Source: an uncultured Clostridia bacterium
GTDB lineage: Bacteria > Bacillota > Clostridia > Christensenellales > DTU072
DNA length: 22,152 bases
Assembly: GCA_934296355.1 (NCBI GenBank)
Contig: CAKRAY010000009.1
Coordinates: 1-22,152 of the forward strand
Direction of reading: 5' to 3'
The notes below the pieces were generated by a model. It was not told where the DNA came from. It did no database searches and was given only the letters and a program-made list of their open reading frames with translations. Positions within the stretch are counted from its first letter, which is position 1, and each line of letters starts with the position of its first letter. Position numbers and translations under genes: made by a program. Shown piece after piece: positions 5,570 through 16,495 of this stretch.

Positions 5570-7498
5570 ATGGCAGGTCCGATAAAAATGAAAGGTAAAG
5601 GTATGGCGATTAACGCCAAGCAAACTTTTTCGCGCCTTATGAAAGAACTGTTCGCGAATAACAAGGGAATGCTCGTTCTCGTCGCGGTGTGCTTGCTGTT
5701 ATGCAGCGTGGCGACCTCGGGAGCCAGTATCTATATTATAAATATGACCCAGTCCTTGTTCGAATCGGGTTTGATTAAGGACGAAATAATGAAGTCGCTC
5801 ACCATCGGCGTAAGCGTCATGGCGTGTATCTATATAGTGGGTATAATCGCTTCGTATTTCAAAGAATGGGCTATGGCGATAGTAACGCAAAGATTTCTTA
5901 ACGATATAAGAAAAAAAATGTTTAACGGTATGCAAAATCTACCGATTAAATACTTCGACACGCACGTGCACGGCGATATAATGAGTTACTATACGAACGA
6001 CGTAGACGCGATAAGACAACTCGTTTCGCAAAGTTTACCGTCGATTTTCCAAGCCTCGATTATGCTTATAATCGTCTTTATAGTAATGATTTACTATTCC
6101 TTATGGCTCACGCTTATCGTGCTTAGTTGCGTGGTAATAATGTTCTTCGTGTCCAAAATAGTGGGCGGCAACAGCGCGAAATACTTCATTCGTCAACAAA
6201 AGACCATCGCCAAAACCGAAGGCTATATCGAAGAAATGATACACGGTCAAAAGGTAATCAAAGTTTTCTGCCACGAAGAAAAAGCGAAAGAGGGCTTCGA
6301 TAAAGTAAACGACGAACTTTGTCACGACGCGGCGCAAGCCAATACCTACGCGAACGTGCTTATGCCGATACTCGGCAACATAGGCAATATGATGTACGTT
6401 TTGTTAGCGTTCACGGGCGCGTTAATCGTCGCTAAGGAAGGACTTAACGTGGGACTCAGCGGAGTATCGCGCGACGCGGCGGTCATCATACCGCTGGTAG
6501 TCGGCTTCCTTACCATGGGCAAACAGTTTACCAACCAAATCGCGCAAATCAGCCAACAAATCAATGCTGTCGTCATGGCGCTTGCCGGCGCGGAAAGAGT
6601 TTTCTCGCTGATGGACGAAAAACCGGAAGAAGACCAAGGTTACGTTACGCTCGTTTACGCGAAGCGCGACGAAAACGGCAATCTTATCGAATCGCAAGAA
6701 AGAACCGGACTTTGGGCGTGGAAGCACCCGCATAAAGCGGACGGCACCGTTACTTACGTTCCGCTTAGAGGCGATATAGAAATGCACGAAGTCGATTTCG
6801 GATACGTTCCCGAAAAAATCGTTCTTCACGACGTTTCGTTACACGCTAAGCCGGGCGAAAAATACGCTTTCGTCGGCGCGACGGGCGCGGGTAAAACAAC
6901 TATAACCAACCTTCTTAACAGGTTCTACGACATAGACGACGGAAAAATCCGCTACGACGGCATAAATATAAACAAAATTAAAAAATCTGACTTGCGTAGG
7001 TCGCTCGGTATGGTTTTACAAGATACCAGTTTGTTTACCGGTACGATTATGGAAAATATCCGTTACGGTAGGCTCGACGCCACCGACGAAGAAGTTTATG
7101 CCGCGGCGAGAATCGCCAACGCCGACGATTTCATTACCAGACTTCCCGACGGCTATAACACGATGCTGACCAACGACGGAGCCAACCTTTCGCAAGGTCA
7201 AAGGCAGTTGCTGTCGATAGCGAGAGCGGCGGTTGCCGACGCGCCCGTAATGATAATGGACGAGGCGACGAGTTCTATCGATACGAGAACCGAACTTCTC
7301 GTTCAGCGCGGTACCGATAGGCTTATGCAAGGCAGAACGGTGTTCATCATAGCGCATAGACTTTCCACCGTGCAAAACGCCGACACGATTATGGTCCTCG
7401 AACACGGACGAGTCATAGAGCGCGGCAGTCACGAAGAATTGCTCGCCCTTAAAGGTCAGTATTACCAACTCTATACCGGCGCGTTCGAATTAGAATAG
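5570..7498 (+). CDS. ABC exporter half-transporter, subunit with canonical Walker B and H-loop
   Basis: The 642-residue partner of the preceding subunit, with a six-helix membrane domain (about 30-345) and an NBD (about 400-640). Walker A is GATGAGKTT (436-444), Walker B ends Asp564-Glu565, and the H-loop is His596. The signature reads LSQGQ (540-544) instead of LSGGQ. Nucleotide sites form across the dimer, so this subunit's intact Walker motifs meet the partner's good VSGGQ (consensus site), while its altered signature meets the partner's defective Walker B (degenerate site). About 50 extra residues (350-400) precede the NBD, as is common in clostridial homologues. AAAGGAGG lies 9 bases before the ATG. 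No simple terminator follows; the inverted repeat at 7559-7619 may serve. Confidence 0.95.
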   Translation: MAGPIKMKGKGMAINAKQTFSRLMKELFANNKGMLVLVAVCLLLCSVATSGASIYIINMTQSLFESGLIKDEIMKSLTIGVSVMACIYIVGIIASYFKEWAMAIVTQRFLNDIRKKMFNGMQNLPIKYFDTHVHGDIMSYYTNDVDAIRQLVSQSLPSIFQASIMLIIVFIVMIYYSLWLTLIVLSCVVIMFFVSKIVGGNSAKYFIRQQKTIAKTEGYIEEMIHGQKVIKVFCHEEKAKEGFDKVNDELCHDAAQANTYANVLMPILGNIGNMMYVLLAFTGALIVAKEGLNVGLSGVSRDAAVIIPLVVGFLTMGKQFTNQIAQISQQINAVVMALAGAERVFSLMDEKPEEDQGYVTLVYAKRDENGNLIESQERTGLWAWKHPHKADGTVTYVPLRGDIEMHEVDFGYVPEKIVLHDVSLHAKPGEKYAFVGATGAGKTTITNLLNRFYDIDDGKIRYDGININKIKKSDLRRSLGMVLQDTSLFTGTIMENIRYGRLDATDEEVYAAARIANADDFITRLPDGYNTMLTNDGANLSQGQRQLLSIARAAVADAPVMIMDEATSSIDTRTELLVQRGTDRLMQGRTVFIIAHRLSTVQNADTIMVLEHGRVIERGSHEELLALKGQYYQLYTGAFELE

Positions 7499-8687: not shown

Positions 8688-11600
8688 ATGAAAATCGGGA
8701 AAAAACTTCTTCTCTTATTGGTATTTATTTTGGTATGCGCATGCATGGTCGCGTGTAACGACAAAACTTCGCAAGGCGCGGGAACCGGCGACGGCAAACA
8801 GTCGATAGAAGCGTTAGACGCGGTTACGGGCATTACGCTTAACCAGCATTTAATAGTTTGGAACGCCGTTTCGCAAGCGGAATATTACGGAATCGTCATA
8901 AACAGCGAGGAGCATTTGACGAACGAGGCGTTTTTCGACGTGCGTACGATAAACCTACCTAAGGGCGCGTATTCCGTTCAGGTCAAAGCGTATACGAGCA
9001 ATAAAAACAAAAAAACCTCGACTTCCGAAGCCGTTATGATAACGTATGCGGGCGCGGAAACGGTATATACGGTGCAAATCGTTCCCCAAGACGGCGGAAC
9101 GACTAACTTTACTTCGAGGGAATATAAAGCGAATAACGTCGTAGACCTTATCGCATACCCTAAGGAAGGATACCATTTCGACGGTTGGTATTCCGATAAT
9201 TTTTATAAACTTTCTTCCGAAAAAACGTTTAGTTTCTCGATTAACGGCAACACCGTTATTTTTGCTAATTTCTCGCTCGACGCCGAAACGATAAACAAAG
9301 AGGCTTACGAAGATTCCGAGTTAATGAGATGCTCGGAAGATTTTGCGGTAGTCGTGCTTTGCCCGGAGGGAGAATCGTACATAAAAGAACACTTTTTCGT
9401 TTACGACGATTACTTTTTGGACGACGACGGTAACGTGGTCGGCGGTTGCGAAGAGTATGCCGAAAGAAAAATCGGCAGAATAGAAAGTCGCGGTAACGAC
9501 TTGTATATCATTTCGCCGAGAGAAGAATACGCAAAGAGCGGCGCGTACGTCGCCAAAGCGACCGGAAACGTGTCGATTTTGAAAGAGTATTCGCGTTTTA
9601 TGAACTCCGTAGGCTCGCAAAACGCGTCAGCCAAGAACGCCGACGATTCGGGAGCGGATATCGACTCGGAACTGTCCGCGCTCGAAGACGATAAGGGCGT
9701 AGACTCGCTTACTTTCTCCATAGACAACGTGCCGCACGAGGATATTAAACTCAGAGCGGACGTTTATATTTATTCCTACGGCAGTAACGAGGAAGCGACT
9801 TCCGACAACGTGGACGGTTGGATTTTGGAAAGAATCGGCGACGGCATTTACGACCCCGACACCGGTATAAGCGGCGGCTTTACCACAAGGTCGATTACCG
9901 TAAGGAACGGATACGACTTAAAGGAAGGCGACGTGGTCGGCTTCGGCGGAACGATGACGAAAAACATTACCGTCAGCCAAATAAACGAAAACAGCGTTTT
10001 CGGTAGAATAAAAGATATTATTTACTGCGGCGATACCGAGTATTACCCGATTATTTACGTAGAACTGGAATCGGTGGAGAGCGATAGCGACGTGTTCGAA
10101 ACGCTCGACGTGTACTCCGAGGGCGATATAGATATAGAAAACTACGTCGACGTGGACGACGAGGAACTAAAAACCGGCGCGGCGAACTTGTTCTTCGCGT
10201 CCGAAGACTTCCAAAAGTTCTTGGCGTCCGTAGAAGTGGCGACGGAGCGTTACGCCGAAGAGAACGATTGCGTTTTGCAAGACGGCGCGTTGAACGCCGC
10301 GTCCATTTTGGACAAAATTAAATTAAAACCCGAATTAAAGAAAGAGAAAAACAAGTTCTCGCTGACTATAAGAGGCAACCTCGATATCGAATTCGGCAAA
10401 AAAGAGAAAAAATACGGTAAAGCGGGCGGCGTGTTCTCCGTTTCTTTCGAGTTTACCGAAGCGTTGAAATTCGAATACAACTTTTCTTGGGTAAAAAAGG
10501 AAACGAAAGTATTTAAGATAAAATATACCGCCGGAATAGACCTTAAAGTGGTCACGACGAACGAAACGAAGTTCGTTTTCGACGTTGCGGTCAAGTACTC
10601 CGCGGGTACGCAAACGGCGAAGTTCATACTTAACGAAAGCACGAAATACGTTCACGTAGCGGACTGCTTCCACGTCGACCAAATGAACGAAAGCAACAAG
10701 AAGACGTCCAACGAAACCATACAAGAAATAGAAAAGAAAGGCTATACGCCGTGTAAACACTGCATACATCCTAAATATATAGTAAACAATTCGAGCAAGT
10801 GCATACACTTAACGAACTGTTTCCACGTAGCGCAAATGCTCCCGACCAACAAACGCCCGACCACGTTATCGATAGATGACTTGACTAAGGACGGATATTG
10901 GGCGTGCGGAAGTTGCCACCCCGACAAAGCGGACGAAGAAATCGACCCCGAAGATACCGAAGCATTCAGAAAGAAAATAAGCGATTCGCTCAGCTACGAA
11001 GATTGGGGCGAAAAACTTAACGAACTTAAAAAATGCCTTAAAGACAGCGACGCGAATTACGATTCGAGCAAGGACTTCAGACTCATTGAAGTACCGTTCA
11101 ATTTCGTCGTTACCGTTTGGCTGAAAGCGTATCTCACGTTATCGTTTAACGTAGAAGCGAGCGTACATTACGAGCAAAAAACTTCCACGCGAGTGACCAT
11201 AGGCGTAAGAGCGGCGATTGGCGAAAACTTCCGTACGGCGTATGAAAAAGAAGAACTAGGCACGACCAAGGAAATGACCATCGTGGGTAAAATCGGCATT
11301 AAAGCGGGCGTAAAACTCGAAATAGCCGTGAGCGACCCGCTGAACTTGGTGTCCTTGGGCTTATACGGCACGGTGGGCGTTTACGCCGACTTAGCGGGTA
11401 TCGTACATATATCGAACGTAGGCGAGAACTACGCCGGCGCGTACTTCGAACTCGGCTTTTATTACGACTTCGGACTTACGTATAGGGTGCTTATGTTTAA
11501 GGGTTCGGTTTCTATAAGTAAACTGTTCGGCTTAAGCGGCAAAGTACCTTTCGTGAAAATGGGATACGATAAGGTAATTTACGCGTATACGAGAGACGTT

Positions 11601-14600
11601 TCCGAAGTTTTGGTGCAAGCCTCGGAGAACAAAAACGAGTTTACCTTAGGAGAATTGAATCTACTCGGCGTAAAGACCATCTCCTTGCCCTCGATGAAAA
11701 CCGCGCAAGAAACGCTCGACCTATCTTCGGGCGATTACGTAGTCAATTTGAGGTTAAAAGACGGCGATTATTACGAAATAGTCGGGTCTTCCATACGAGT
11801 AAAGAGCGGCGCGCCCGAAACTTTCGAAGATACTTTGAGCATTTCGATAACGAGCAAAGATAAATCGTGGAAAACGTTTAAGGGACATAACGACATACTC
11901 TATCTGCCGACGATTACGGTAAAACTCGTCTGCGCGAACAAATGTACCGACCACGCGCTGATATACTTGCCTACCGAAGATCCGACTTGCGAAGATACCG
12001 GCTTGGAAGAGTGCTTTATGTGTACGTATTGCTTAAAACTCTTCGATATAGAAATGAACGTGCAGTTAACGGAAAGGAAAGTTATCGCCGCGCTCGGACA
12101 CGATATCGTTCCTATCCCCGCCGTTCCCGCGACTTGTTATAAAACCGGTCTCGGCGAGGGCGCGATTTGTCAAAGATGCGAGTATATAAGCGTACCGCAA
12201 CCGGTCACCGACGCGCTCGGACACGAGGCGGGAGAAGAATGGCATATCGCCGTAGAGGCTTCTTGCGAAGGTCAGGGCAGTATGTATAGGAGTTGTATCC
12301 GTTGCGACTTGCCGATGAATTACAAAGCCGTTTTACCGCTCGGTCACGACGCGGGCGATCAAGAACTCTCTTGTCAAAACCCGATTTTGTGTACGCGTTG
12401 CGATAAAGTACTTGCCAAAGCCATAGGTCACGACTATTACGAAACGAGTAAGAAAGACCCCACTTGCGAAACCAACGGCTGGAAAGTCCTTACTTGTAAA
12501 AAGTGCTCGGGGACCACTACCGAGATAATCAACGCGACCGGACACGCCGATAGAAAGGACGCCGACGAAGTGTGGGTTTCCGTGGCTTCCACTTGCTTGG
12601 ACGCGGGCGAATGGTCGTGGAGATGCAATCACGTAGGTTGCGACGTCGAGGGCGGAAAAATATGTAAAGAAAGAATAGCCCCCGACGGTCATATCTATGC
12701 CGACGACTATACGGTAGACATCGAGCCGACTTGTACCGAACCCGGCGAAAAGTCTATTCACTGCGTTAAGTGCGGAGTGAAAAAATCCGATTCGCAAGTA
12801 ACGCTGGACGCGCTCGGACACGACAGTACCCCCGCGACTTGTACTACCGACGAAGTGTGCGCAAGATGCGATAAGAAGATTAAATCCGCGCTCGGTCATA
12901 AGTATGAACTCGCTACGCCCGGTAACGAAGAAGCCATTTATAGGTGCTTGACTTGTGGCGATGAAGTAACCCATACTCACGATTTCGAGTTGAAAGTAAT
13001 TCAACCCACTTGTACTTCGCAAGGCTATACCGAACATACTTGTAAAGAAGAATTTTGTAGTCACTACACGTATAGAAGCGACTTCAATCAGCGCGAACAC
13101 GCTTGGCAAGAAAGTAAACGCGGGGAGGCTACTTGCTCGAATAACGGCTTTGTAGAATACGTTTGCGCCTACTCCGATTGCGGCGAAACCAAGACCGAAA
13201 CGCTGGTCGCGCACCATGTTTACGACGAGGACTACACCGTGGACGTAGAACCGACTTGTACGGCGAAAGGCAGTAAGAGCAAGCATTGCTTGTGGTACGA
13301 TATTTGCGGAGTGAAGACCGACGCGCAAGAGATAGACGAGAAAGGACATACCGCTAATATGGAACACGCGAGTTGCGTAGAAGACAGCGTTTGCGTTACT
13401 TGCGGACAAGTTCTGGAAAAATCGATCGGACACGACTTCCGCGAAGTCGAAGGCACGAGGGAGTACGAATCGTACACCGCCTTGTTCCGTTGCGAAAAAT
13501 GCGGCGAAGAGAAAACCGATGCGTTCGCGCATAACTATGACTCGGGCGAAGTAATCGCGCCTACTTGCGTGTCCGAGGGATATACTATATATCGTTGCAC
13601 GGACAAGAATTGTAACTTCGAGAAGAAAGATAACTATACCGCCAAGGTAGACCACGTTTACGGCGATACGGGCGTAATAACCGAGCCGACTTGTATAGCC
13701 GACGGTTTCGCTACCTACGCTTGCCTTGTTTGCGGTCACGAAGATAGAAGAGCGTATGAAGACAATCAAAAACTCGGACACTTCTGGAAAGAATCGCCCG
13801 CAGTCAACCCGACTTGTACCGAACCCGGTAAAACCGCCGGCGTATACTGCTTGCGTTGCAAAAAGGTAAGTTTAGAGCAAACAACCGTAGACGCGCTCGG
13901 ACATAATTATATAGATACGCAAGTCGAACCTACTTGTACGCAAGACGGCTATACTCGCCACGCTTGCGATAGATGCGGCGATAGTTACGACGATAGCAAA
14001 ACCGCGGCGCACGGCTTGATAAAAGTAGAACGTAAAGAGGCTGCTTGCGAAACCGCCGGCAATATAGAATACTACCGTTGTTCGTTACTGACTTGCGGAA
14101 AACTCTATTCCGACAAAGGCGGCTTAAATCAAATCAGCGCGGCAAACACGGTTATCGCCGCCAAGGGTCACGATTACGATAGAAGCAGTTACTTTAAGTA
14201 TGAAAATAGCACTTGCGCAAAAACGGGTAAGGCTGTATACAAGTGCAAAAATTGCGACGATTTGGAAGAACATATCATAGATAAAAAAGACCATACCAAT
14301 AAGATTAACGCAAGAATAGAACCTACTTGTACGACCGAAGGTAAAACCGAAGGCGTTGAATGCGCCGTTTGCGGCGAAATAATAGTATCGCAAAACCCGA
14401 TTCCCGCTAAGGGACACTCGTATAAAGCAATAAGACAAGAACCGACTTGCACGGAAGCCGGACTTATAACTTATACTTGTACCGTATGTAACGATAAAAA
14501 TGAGGAAGATATCGACCCGCTAGGACACGATTTGAAAGAAAAAGCCGATTATGAAGAGTTAAAGTCAGAAGACGAGTGTTCACCGGACAATTATTGGAAA

Positions 14601-15851
14601 TGCCTTAGATGTGAAAAATACTACTCCGATGCAGAAGGTGAAACTGAAATCAAAAAAGGCGATTGGGTCAATGCACATGTACTTACTACGGTAAAAGAAA
14701 GAAAAGATGATGGAAAGATTTGTACAGAAAATTATACTATCTACGAGTGTACTCGTTGTACCAATGGTGTAACCAAAATCGTGTATGACAAACATAGTGC
14801 TAACGATAATTGCATTTGTGCAAGATGCGGAGCGGTTGCGCACATGCCCAACGACAATTGCATTTGTACAAAATGCGGAGCGACCGCACACACATTTGAC
14901 GATAATTGCGTATGCACCGTATGCGGAAAAACTGTTCACGGAATTAAAGACGGTAACTATTGTCGTCATAATAACAATATTTACTTCGGTACATATCCGC
15001 AAAGCAAAGTAATGGATAATAGCATTACTTCCGCTCTTACTATCCTAGCGGGAACGTTACCTACTTCGAGTAATTCCGCTAATTGGACTTCCTATGGCTA
15101 CTATATAGGCGGAAAAGTAAGTAACTTTATGTGGTATATCGACAAAGAATATAAAGGCGAGAAGTATAGAGGAGTGTACTTCACGAGTTATAGACCTTAT
15201 ACCTGTGGTAGCAGTAGTTCTACGAGTAACACTTATCAAGACGATAACGGCTACTATACGTCCACGGTATATTGGTTTAAGTATGAACCTATTAAGTGGA
15301 GAATACTAAAAGAAAGCGACGGAAAAGCGTTAATTTTAGCAGACTTAGCGATAGACAGTCAACAGTATTATCATAGTAAGTCAAACCGTACGGTTGGCGG
15401 TAATACCGTATATCCCAATAACTATGCGGAAAGTGATATTAGAAAGTGGCTTAACGATACCTTCTATAATACCGCTTTTAGCACGTTGCAAAAAAAATTG
15501 ATACAAGTTACCGAAGTGGATAACAGCACAAGTAGCACTGGACCAAATAGTAATGATTACGCTTGCGAAAATACAAACGACAACGTATTCTTACTTAGTT
15601 GCACGGATGTAGCCGCTTACTTAACGATCAATAGCGAAAGACAAATGAAGAGTAGCGACTACGCTAAGAGTCAAGGCATACAAGAAGGCAATAGTTACGT
15701 CGGACCGCATATGTGGTGGCTCCGTTCGCCTTACTATTACGAGTGTGATGGCGCACACAGCGTCGATTACGGCGGCTTTCTCGACTACGATGCCAACGTC
15801 CACTGTACTGGCGACGGCGTTCTTCCCGCTTTGGTGATGCGGTTATCGTGA
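8688..15851 (+). CDS. Giant Cys-rich repeat lipoprotein with C-terminal DUF6273-like domain
   Basis: 2387 residues. A lipoprotein signal peptide ends in MVAC (Cys23), so the protein is probably lipid-anchored outside the membrane. In order: FN3-like domain (about 41-122); InlB B-repeat-like domain with GYHFDGWYS (125-197); a long acidic and beta-rich region (200-650); two Ada-like modules (653-692 and 704-743) with spaced His/Cys and a GYxxCxxC end; a second beta-rich region (about 790-980); about 24 degenerate repeats of the form PTCTxxGYxxxxCxxCG...ALGH plus three short CxCxxCG units (1081-2087); and a DUF6273-like domain starting NNIYFGTYPQ (2097) with EPIKWRIL and WWLRSP (2343-2348). The Cys pairs could bind metal or form disulfides. 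The ribosome binding site is a modest GGGGGCG. Codon use turns more AT-rich from about 14530. The role is unknown; adhesion or ligand binding is an inference. Confidence 0.93.
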   Translation: MKIGKKLLLLLVFILVCACMVACNDKTSQGAGTGDGKQSIEALDAVTGITLNQHLIVWNAVSQAEYYGIVINSEEHLTNEAFFDVRTINLPKGAYSVQVKAYTSNKNKKTSTSEAVMITYAGAETVYTVQIVPQDGGTTNFTSREYKANNVVDLIAYPKEGYHFDGWYSDNFYKLSSEKTFSFSINGNTVIFANFSLDAETINKEAYEDSELMRCSEDFAVVVLCPEGESYIKEHFFVYDDYFLDDDGNVVGGCEEYAERKIGRIESRGNDLYIISPREEYAKSGAYVAKATGNVSILKEYSRFMNSVGSQNASAKNADDSGADIDSELSALEDDKGVDSLTFSIDNVPHEDIKLRADVYIYSYGSNEEATSDNVDGWILERIGDGIYDPDTGISGGFTTRSITVRNGYDLKEGDVVGFGGTMTKNITVSQINENSVFGRIKDIIYCGDTEYYPIIYVELESVESDSDVFETLDVYSEGDIDIENYVDVDDEELKTGAANLFFASEDFQKFLASVEVATERYAEENDCVLQDGALNAASILDKIKLKPELKKEKNKFSLTIRGNLDIEFGKKEKKYGKAGGVFSVSFEFTEALKFEYNFSWVKKETKVFKIKYTAGIDLKVVTTNETKFVFDVAVKYSAGTQTAKFILNESTKYVHVADCFHVDQMNESNKKTSNETIQEIEKKGYTPCKHCIHPKYIVNNSSKCIHLTNCFHVAQMLPTNKRPTTLSIDDLTKDGYWACGSCHPDKADEEIDPEDTEAFRKKISDSLSYEDWGEKLNELKKCLKDSDANYDSSKDFRLIEVPFNFVVTVWLKAYLTLSFNVEASVHYEQKTSTRVTIGVRAAIGENFRTAYEKEELGTTKEMTIVGKIGIKAGVKLEIAVSDPLNLVSLGLYGTVGVYADLAGIVHISNVGENYAGAYFELGFYYDFGLTYRVLMFKGSVSISKLFGLSGKVPFVKMGYDKVIYAYTRDVSEVLVQASENKNEFTLGELNLLGVKTISLPSMKTAQETLDLSSGDYVVNLRLKDGDYYEIVGSSIRVKSGAPETFEDTLSISITSKDKSWKTFKGHNDILYLPTITVKLVCANKCTDHALIYLPTEDPTCEDTGLEECFMCTYCLKLFDIEMNVQLTERKVIAALGHDIVPIPAVPATCYKTGLGEGAICQRCEYISVPQPVTDALGHEAGEEWHIAVEASCEGQGSMYRSCIRCDLPMNYKAVLPLGHDAGDQELSCQNPILCTRCDKVLAKAIGHDYYETSKKDPTCETNGWKVLTCKKCSGTTTEIINATGHADRKDADEVWVSVASTCLDAGEWSWRCNHVGCDVEGGKICKERIAPDGHIYADDYTVDIEPTCTEPGEKSIHCVKCGVKKSDSQVTLDALGHDSTPATCTTDEVCARCDKKIKSALGHKYELATPGNEEAIYRCLTCGDEVTHTHDFELKVIQPTCTSQGYTEHTCKEEFCSHYTYRSDFNQREHAWQESKRGEATCSNNGFVEYVCAYSDCGETKTETLVAHHVYDEDYTVDVEPTCTAKGSKSKHCLWYDICGVKTDAQEIDEKGHTANMEHASCVEDSVCVTCGQVLEKSIGHDFREVEGTREYESYTALFRCEKCGEEKTDAFAHNYDSGEVIAPTCVSEGYTIYRCTDKNCNFEKKDNYTAKVDHVYGDTGVITEPTCIADGFATYACLVCGHEDRRAYEDNQKLGHFWKESPAVNPTCTEPGKTAGVYCLRCKKVSLEQTTVDALGHNYIDTQVEPTCTQDGYTRHACDRCGDSYDDSKTAAHGLIKVERKEAACETAGNIEYYRCSLLTCGKLYSDKGGLNQISAANTVIAAKGHDYDRSSYFKYENSTCAKTGKAVYKCKNCDDLEEHIIDKKDHTNKINARIEPTCTTEGKTEGVECAVCGEIIVSQNPIPAKGHSYKAIRQEPTCTEAGLITYTCTVCNDKNEEDIDPLGHDLKEKADYEELKSEDECSPDNYWKCLRCEKYYSDAEGETEIKKGDWVNAHVLTTVKERKDDGKICTENYTIYECTRCTNGVTKIVYDKHSANDNCICARCGAVAHMPNDNCICTKCGATAHTFDDNCVCTVCGKTVHGIKDGNYCRHNNNIYFGTYPQSKVMDNSITSALTILAGTLPTSSNSANWTSYGYYIGGKVSNFMWYIDKEYKGEKYRGVYFTSYRPYTCGSSSSTSNTYQDDNGYYTSTVYWFKYEPIKWRILKESDGKALILADLAIDSQQYYHSKSNRTVGGNTVYPNNYAESDIRKWLNDTFYNTAFSTLQKKLIQVTEVDNSTSSTGPNSNDYACENTNDNVFLLSCTDVAAYLTINSERQMKSSDYAKSQGIQEGNSYVGPHMWWLRSPYYYECDGAHSVDYGGFLDYDANVHCTGDGVLPALVMRLS

Positions 15852-15856
15852 TAACC
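15711..15856 (+). other. Candidate DGR-type variable region at the 3' end of the lipoprotein gene
   Basis: After WWLRSP, 31 of the 34 codons 2349-2382 (15732-15833) are NNY, and AA occurs only once in these 102 bases. Four-fold residues (Val GTC, Leu CTC, Ala GCC) also end in pyrimidine. This is what adenine-directed mutagenesis of AAY codons would leave. A perfect 16-bp dyad, GGTTATC-GT-GATAACC (15841-15856), spans the stop codon. No reverse transcriptase or template repeat is in the window. Confidence 0.4.
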
Positions 15857-15873
15857 AAGAATCACCGATAATC

Positions 15874-15891
15874 TTGCGCCATAAGGCGCAA
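15874..15891 (+). other. Short perfect hairpin just after the lipoprotein gene
   Basis: TTGCGCC and GGCGCAA form a 7-bp stem with loop ATAA, 23 bases after the stop. Some DGR target genes carry a similar short GC-rich hairpin after the variable region. It has no T-run, so it is not a terminator by itself. Confidence 0.55.
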
Positions 15892-15896
15892 TCGAC

Positions 15897-15938
15897 TTAC
15901 GGAAAACGGAAAGCGATTTTGTCGCCCGTTTTTCGTAA
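15897..15938 (+). other. Long imperfect hairpin
   Basis: TTACGGAAAACGG (15897-15909) pairs with CCGTTTTTCGTAA (15926-15938) with one wobble. Inside it GCGA/TCGC forms a second stem. Only a short T-run lies within the 3' arm, so a role in termination is uncertain. Confidence 0.5.
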
Positions 15939-15953
15939 TGACTGTAAAAATAC

Positions 15954-15988
15954 AAAGAACTCGCCTTATTCTCGGCGGGTTCTTTGAT
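15954..15988 (+). terminator. Probable terminator of the lipoprotein gene
   Basis: A 12-bp stem AAAGAACTCGCC/GGCGGGTTCTTT with one U-G pair and an 8-base loop (15954-15985). The T-rich tract is weak (TCTTTGATTT), but this is the strongest terminator-like structure after the gene. Confidence 0.6.
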
Positions 15989-16147
15989 TTATGGCGGTCG
16001 GCAATGCCGAGCAATCAACGCTTTCTTAGCGTGGAGTGTCTCATGCACGTTGCTTTACACCACAAAAAACAATACTATTTTTATTATTGAAAACCTATTT
16101 TTGTCGAGAAAACAAAAGCGGATATAAGAAATCTAAGTTTTTTGTGG

Positions 16148-16348: not shown

Positions 16349-16377
16349 TTGACAAAGGCGTGATTTTGTTGTAAAAT
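16349..16377 (+). promoter_or_regulatory. Sigma-A promoter of guaB
   Basis: A perfect TTGACA (16349-16354), 17 bp, TAAAAT (16372-16377). The start site would be near 16384, giving a leader of about 112 nt. Confidence 0.87.
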
Positions 16378-16383
16378 TAGTCA

Positions 16384-16495
16384 ATGTTAGGAAAAAGATT
16401 TTTATTTCGTAAAATAATTCAGAATATCATACATTGAGGACAGTCAATGCGGGATGAGCCGCGTTTGACTGTTTTTTCTAAAAAGGAGGCTTTAT
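16384..16495 (+). promoter_or_regulatory. guaB leader with competing hairpins (attenuator candidate)
   Basis: The leader contains an intrinsic terminator (16440-16477). CATTGA (16432-16437) can pair with TCAATG (16444-16449), which would block the terminator's 5' arm. An upstream AATGT near the start site could in turn pair with ACATT (16431-16435). An AT-rich hairpin (16402-16417) lies between. This three-way exclusivity is typical of transcription attenuation. It does not match the purine riboswitch consensus as remembered. Confidence 0.5.
16440..16477 (+). terminator. Intrinsic terminator inside the guaB leader
   Basis: ACAGTCAA (16440-16447) pairs with TTGACTGT (16465-16472), continued inward by a U-G pair and GCGG/CCGC around a bulged U, with a 6-base loop and then six T. 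It ends 6 bases before the guaB ribosome binding site, so termination here would switch guaB off. Confidence 0.75.

Follow-up and report, generated by a model that had tools for sequence, protein, structure and literature searches.

DUF6273 is described as a carrier of the variable regions (VRs) of diversity-generating retroelements (DGRs), with the VR at the C-terminus of the domain (passages of PMC10743442 and PMC11792537). The domain was found to be C-lectin-like by structure comparison (passages of PMC10743442). Such targets are described from gut phages, namely the tentaclins and a Faecalibacterium prophage. In T. denticola, the DGR of the TvpA type has several targets situated far from the reverse transcriptase (RT) and the template, and many of these targets are predicted lipoproteins (passages of PMC4891356). 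The VRs of BPP-1-type DGRs are followed, 4-34 bases downstream, by hairpins with a 7-10 bp stem and a 4-base loop (passages of PMC3240598). A search of one literature collection retrieved no paper joining Christensenellales with diversity-generating. The DNA analyzed here, referred to as the window, is the whole stretch of 22,152 nucleotides from an uncultured Clostridia bacterium (contig CAKRAY010000009.1). Judged from sequence comparison, the 3' end of a giant gene in the window is very probably a DGR variable region.

The product of this gene has 2387 residues. Translation and Pfam analysis revealed a lipoprotein-like N-terminus, a Cys-repeat middle part and DUF6273 at the C-terminus (Table 1). 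The N-terminal signal is presumably of the lipoprotein type, according to the lipobox rule, and the protein is probably surface-anchored. It contains 23 CxxC motifs, 21 of which are located between residues 1109 and 2079. The DUF6273 match (E 2.4e-22) covered profile positions 1-169 of 172 and reached 80 bits against a curated cut-off of 23.5. On the basis of Pfam matches, the neighbors of the giant gene code for a YchF-type GTPase, BacA, two ABC transporters, an IMP dehydrogenase, an alpha-galactosidase and a LysR regulator, which together look like an ordinary chromosomal set. At 16349-16495, a promoter-like site (TTGACA and TAAAAT, spaced by 17) is followed by a terminator-like hairpin just 5' of the IMP dehydrogenase gene, and this pair is perhaps a regulated leader.

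Table 1. Coordinates of the features of the giant gene and its 3' flank in the window.
Feature	Position	Strand	Basis or remark
Giant ORF, 2387 residues	8688..15851	+	ORF and translation; Pfam
Lipoprotein-like signal, hydrophobic stretch ending ...MVAC, Cys = residue 23	8688..8756	+	Translation
Cys-repeat region, proposed stalk	12012..14924	+	Motif count; role inferred
DUF6273 domain, residues 2211-2383	15318..15836	+	Pfam PF19789
Proposed VR, 5' constant codons WWLRSP	15714..15731	+	Codon counts, template alignment
Proposed VR, 28 variable codons, residues 2349-2376	15732..15815	+	Codon counts, related templates
Proposed VR, 3' constant codons GVLPALVMRLS	15816..15848	+	10 of 11 residues common to P0041
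Dyad over the stop codon, 7-base arms with 2 bases between	15841..15856	.	Also at one VR of G015 (L116)
Spacer motifs AATC (15860-15863) and TAATCT (15869-15874), ahead of the hairpin	15860..15874	+	
Hairpin TTGCGCC-ATAA-GGCGCAA, proposed target-recognition element	15874..15891	.	

The sequence-only reading had pointed to three peculiarities of the tail: 31 of the 34 codons after WWLRSP end in a pyrimidine, the dinucleotide AA appears once in the corresponding 102 bases, and the residues are those reachable from AAY. A recount gave the same two counts, and 33 of the 34 residues were found to fall in the NNY-encoded set. The codons GAG, GCA and TTG are the exceptions in third base, all others being NNY, the AAY-derivable form characteristic of a DGR VR. 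For comparison, 5508 windows of 34 codons were taken from nine genes of the 22-kb stretch with the VR tail left out; they overlap and are not independent. None of them reached 31 pyrimidine-ending codons (mean 18.5, maximum 28), and AA was present at most once in 40. The same residue-set level was reached by 71 of 5500 other windows and is hence uncommon, not unique. When the peptide was kept fixed and synonymous codons were redrawn from local usage, 31 or more pyrimidine-ending codons were obtained with P = 0.0032 (mean 25.4 of 34) and AA at most once with P = 0.24. Because of this latter value, obtained with the peptide kept, the scarcity of AA carries little information over and above the residues, and it was rejected as separate evidence.

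The structural model of the last 228 residues showed a mean pLDDT of 79.8 and a pTM of 0.81, the first 35 residues being poorly modelled. In the numbering of this model, predicted strands at 184-189, 196-200, 206-211 and 222-226 run across the VR. The likeness of the window's DUF6273 tail to C-lectins is presumed from the passages of PMC10743442.

YchF of the window was compared with a draw of 297 genomes of the G001 order. Identity was 79-82% for the five top matches, and we infer that the window has its neighborhood in this order and in the family of G152. Four RTs were aligned, and the alignment served as query against 396 genomes of the order (E<=1e-10). DGR-type RT matches were observed in 61 genomes, three of which supplied query RTs and are included by construction; the weaker matches are taken to be other RT classes. 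At 21 of the best 30 RT loci, a stretch near the RT reads W[LS]R[ST] and is then rich in Asn codons. Twenty loci with added flank were scanned for template and VR, and a clean partner was found in 12. In these 12 pairs, with paired segments of 82-134 bases, the partner departs from the template at 187 of 389 template adenines and at 6 of 935 other bases, the latter figure being a lower bound because the score used to choose the segments penalized non-A mismatches. Eight loci are outside these totals: the retrieved stretch of L206, L207, L213, L215 and L221 contained no VR in the scan, L214 gave pieces of a VR only, and L216 and L217 showed out-of-register tandem copies with 13-16 non-A mismatches. 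Template-like copies are repeated near the DGR RT in L216 (about 5967-7120, ~330-350 bases apart) and in L217. The pairs of G001 (15 A and 5 other mismatches) and of G220 (22 A and 2 other mismatches with 5 gap columns, by blastn) are also outside the total of 389 adenines. Of eight target proteins of DGR loci, six scored above the DUF6273 cut-off, one scored below it and one gave no match.

One genome, G391, possesses an RT, an Avd-like protein, a template and a 2129-residue Cys-repeat target together. Its Avd-like protein matched NCBIfam DivGenRetAVD with E 2.3e-11, under the curated cut-off of that family. Since its VR lacks one codon relative to the template, an ungapped alignment of the two showed 18 non-A mismatches. 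The giant target (L155:10344-16733) has a VR near the N-terminus, then 43 CxxC motifs and a hydrophobic C-terminus, and so mirrors the window protein. G391 serves as a positive control for the tail as well as, mirrored, for the architecture. Six RVT_1 loci scanned with a VR of the same genome yielded no matching template; one of them, in G001, has a differently built template, and the RTs of some of these loci read like members of other classes. A guessed template pattern, TCN CCN (AAY)4 AGY (AAY)2, was found within 2 mismatches in 1 of the 396 genomes of the order and had no exact match in viral contigs. It was discarded as too strict, because the RT search later led to many templates.

The window was aligned with 15 of the 20 related templates. 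Positions 9, 11, 12, 23, 26, 27 and 30 of the window correspond to Asn in 13-15 of these 15 templates. Asn was found in none of them at WWLRSP, A13, V16, G20, V28 and G34 to L39, and in at most 4 at positions 7, 10, 14, 19, 21, 22, 24, 31 and 32, the last of these results counting against the DGR reading. Position 9 of the window is GAG, which is underivable from the template codon AAT, so the window's own template must differ there.

Neither an RT nor a template repeat was found within the window. In the family of G152, RT matches were observed in 3 of 40 genomes and were strong only in G220. In G278 and G220, the neighboring VR alone matched the template well. The relative with the most VRs, G015, has 12 DUF6273 matches and VRs on six contigs. 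It gave no RT match, and a search with one of its VRs retrieved no strong template match, all eight strong matches being VR copies, with weaker matches besides. It is therefore possible, if rather doubtful, that the tail was diversified by a DGR which has since been lost and that its sequence is now fixed and drifting normally. T. denticola isolates with target genes but no core DGR are a precedent for such a state (passages of PMC4891356). However, MAGs can miss cassettes, and in five G015 copies of one tail type the average identity is 77% in the 450 bases upstream and 62% in the VR but reaches 96% across the 36 constant bases and 92% over the first 64 bases past the stop, suggesting continued rewriting or constraint there. 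A lost DGR is a rival to present activity, not to DGR origin. On balance, the tail is probably still being diversified. The RT and template would then be present in the window's organism, far from the gene. The remote DGR proposed in the sequence-only reading may indeed act on it, as the scattered copies of G015 and the T. denticola system suggest. In viral contigs, no exact match of the window's 3' end and no relative of its DUF6273 domain was found, and 15601-15960 had no match in phage records by distant blastn.

A dyad of 16 bp over the stop and a downstream hairpin of 7 bp with a 4-base loop had also been claimed for the window. Both were located: the dyad spans the TGA at 15849-15851, and the hairpin, starting 22 bases past the stop, is of the kind looked for downstream of a DGR VR. 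A 7-bp stem with a 4-base loop and at least 4 G/C is present in 16 of 736 90-base stretches of the window. The spacer motif, AATCT or [AT]AATC, was found within 50 bases 3' of all 13 verified VRs (the 12 from the template/VR scan and that of G001). Its background was 2413 of 17558 random 50-base windows of the same DGR loci; it was present after 29 of 135 stops of long ORFs and after 2 of 12 templates, where 8 of the 12 template ends are placed approximately. A GC-rich hairpin (stem at least 5 bp, loop 3-6 bases) occurs in the first 75 bases after 11 of the 13 verified VRs, a raw count from loci which are themselves GC-rich. Among 52 DUF6273 tails with the window counted, pyrimidine-ending codons number 26 or more of 30 in 13 tails and no more than 21 in 20 tails. 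The tails form a range, and DUF6273 therefore also exists without the signature, as in L007 from a close genome. The motif is present in 9 of the 13 high-signature tails, counting the window itself and five G015 copies; with the window left out, it is found in 8 of 12 against 3 of 20 low-signature tails.

The dyad was found among 171 loci at only one site of G015, whose surrounding 3' DNA also resembles the window. It occurs in 2 of 40 genomes of the family, at the VR in G015 and in unrelated coding DNA in G107, and was rejected as a general DGR mark. That the dyad and the hairpin are parts of a transcription terminator unrelated to a DGR is unlikely. Both come after the stop, and terminator-like sites of the plus strand lie further 3' (15913-15925, 16029-16046 and 16446-16465), but the hairpin has no T-run and is absent from the list of terminator-like sites in the window, and AATCT with a hairpin is also seen after VRs beyond which the reading frame goes on, L155 being one case.

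Scanning of genome contigs with the last 247 residues revealed 78 loci, most of them titled Clostridia MAGs and a minority titled Tenericutes, Acholeplasmatales, Bacillales or Treponema. Many tails have the pattern WWLRSP....S..A..V...G......V..T..GVVPAL in common, with free positions between. The best protein relatives of the domain, P0041 and P0122, are only 69% and 71% identical, so no strain of the window's species was found. P0041, from a different species, agrees with the window in 145 of 189 residues before the VR, 8 of 28 inside it and 10 of 11 after it. In a set of 230 tails from 241 proteins, the mean VR identity was 45% for the 38 tail pairs which are 90-95% identical upstream and 67% for the 16 pairs above 95%. 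The VR is the same or nearly the same in 7 of the 15 closest protein pairs listed, some of which are perhaps copies of one gene. Five pairs of giant proteins are 94-97% identical before the VR and 36-52% inside it, and all their post-VR residues agree: P0101/P0107 (2798 of 2961 residues before the VR, 10 of 28 in it), P0047/P0049 (2747 of 2829, 14 of 27), P0047/P0054 (2654 of 2811, 13 of 28), P0049/P0054 (2652 of 2813, 10 of 27) and P0047/P0055 (2696 of 2785, 11 of 28). P0101 and P0107 have lipoprotein-like starts. Another protein, P0002 (2429 residues), contains several DUF6273-like stretches, each with a WLRSP-like end and differing residues.

Paralogues within G015 showed the same contrast at the codon level. 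In six of them, a set that omits the copies in L118 (frameshifted) and L116 (short), codon positions 1, 2 and 3 differ in 52, 43 and 22% of comparisons in the VR against 19, 18 and 34% upstream. Among codons with unlike residues, the third base is changed in 27% of cases in the VR against 67% upstream. Of the two omitted copies, the one in L118 (plus strand, 1606) is a decayed target, a DUF6273 copy with a frameshifted VR. In L116, on the minus strand from about 1960, a VR and its downstream sequence are located in a 64-residue frame without a preceding DUF6273, as if the cassette had moved alone. Recombination between paralogues could in principle pass on finished VR cassettes, with no mutagenic retrohoming taking place in this organism, and the conserved 3' ends across the G015 paralogues and the stand-alone cassette of L116 would suit such exchange. 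It is nevertheless quite improbable, as pairs more than 95% identical upstream often differ in scattered codons and not in shared blocks, and exchange cannot create the NNY diversity initially. Ordinary diversifying selection on a binding loop combined with codon bias, with no retroelement involved, is the least probable explanation of all: residue make-up explains the low AA and part of the pyrimidine excess, and many DUF6273 tails, L007 among them, lack the signature, but third positions in G015 change least where residues change most, templates of the same form lie beside RTs, and the downstream element is conserved.

The proposal that the tail is a DGR target is thus supported from three sides. 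In related genomes, templates lying next to RTs have partners in DUF6273 tails built like that of the window. The downstream element is common to the window and the verified VRs. Between giant relatives that are otherwise almost identical, most of the differences fall in the VR. Because of these observations, the tail is almost certainly a DGR VR. In the proposed mechanism, the source would be a template RNA with mostly AAC/AAT codons in its tail. A DGR reverse transcriptase encoded outside the window would copy this RNA and misread its adenines. The resulting cDNA would take the place of about 15714-15848, with the constant 3' end, the AATC/TAATCT spacer and the hairpin as guides. Since no NNY codon can turn into a stop, this would randomise the last part of the C-lectin-like domain while the protein stays unbroken. 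The lipid-anchored Cys-repeat region would hold the variable domain away from the cell, and the variable tip would presumably bind some ligand. The earlier suggestion of a display stalk for a variable tip fits the lipoprotein-like start, the Cys-repeats and the C-terminal variable domain, and the protein may serve as one.

More tentatively, the VR and the AATC(T)-hairpin might form a portable module in this group of Clostridia, carried by many unlinked surface proteins of a genome, including giant lipoproteins, with one RT and template acting in trans. The G015 VRs with the same downstream sequence on several contigs hint at this. A single cell would then display a variety of long stalks, the tip of each randomised on its own. 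The signature, consisting of an NNY-rich DUF6273 tail, a constant 3' end, the AATC(T) spacer and the hairpin, can be read without the RT and would make such targets countable. If such tails are rewritten in living populations, the surface of uncultured gut Clostridia would carry randomised binders whose stalks are 2000-3000 residues long, and this would bear on their attachment to food, mucus, phages or one another.

Comparison with described systems places the window protein between several of them. It resembles the tentaclins and the Faecalibacterium prophage target in having DUF6273 with a C-terminal VR; those are phage proteins with an adjacent cassette, whereas the window codes for a chromosomal giant lipoprotein-like protein with no cassette seen (passages of PMC10743442 and PMC11792537). 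The T. denticola targets are lipoproteins remote from the core and are present also in strains without it, but they possess a C-lectin domain of the FGE-sulfatase type, are far shorter than 2387 residues and belong to another phylum (passages of PMC4891356). With the BPP-1 DGR, the window shares a VR at the 3' end of the gene and a GC-rich hairpin downstream, while its ATAA loop departs from the GRNA loop rule of phage DGRs (passages of PMC3240598). G391 is similar in its DUF6273-type VR, its long Cys-repeat region and the AATCT and hairpin after the VR. The order is reversed, however: in G391 the VR is near the N-terminus with the repeats after it, while in the window the anchor comes first and the VR last, and the RT, Avd-like gene and template adjoin the target in G391 and not in the window. 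DGR targeting of DUF6273 is already known from phages, as passages of the papers on gut-phage targets describe. To this group the window tail adds a member marked by an unusually long, predicted lipid-anchored stalk and by its AATC(T)-hairpin element.
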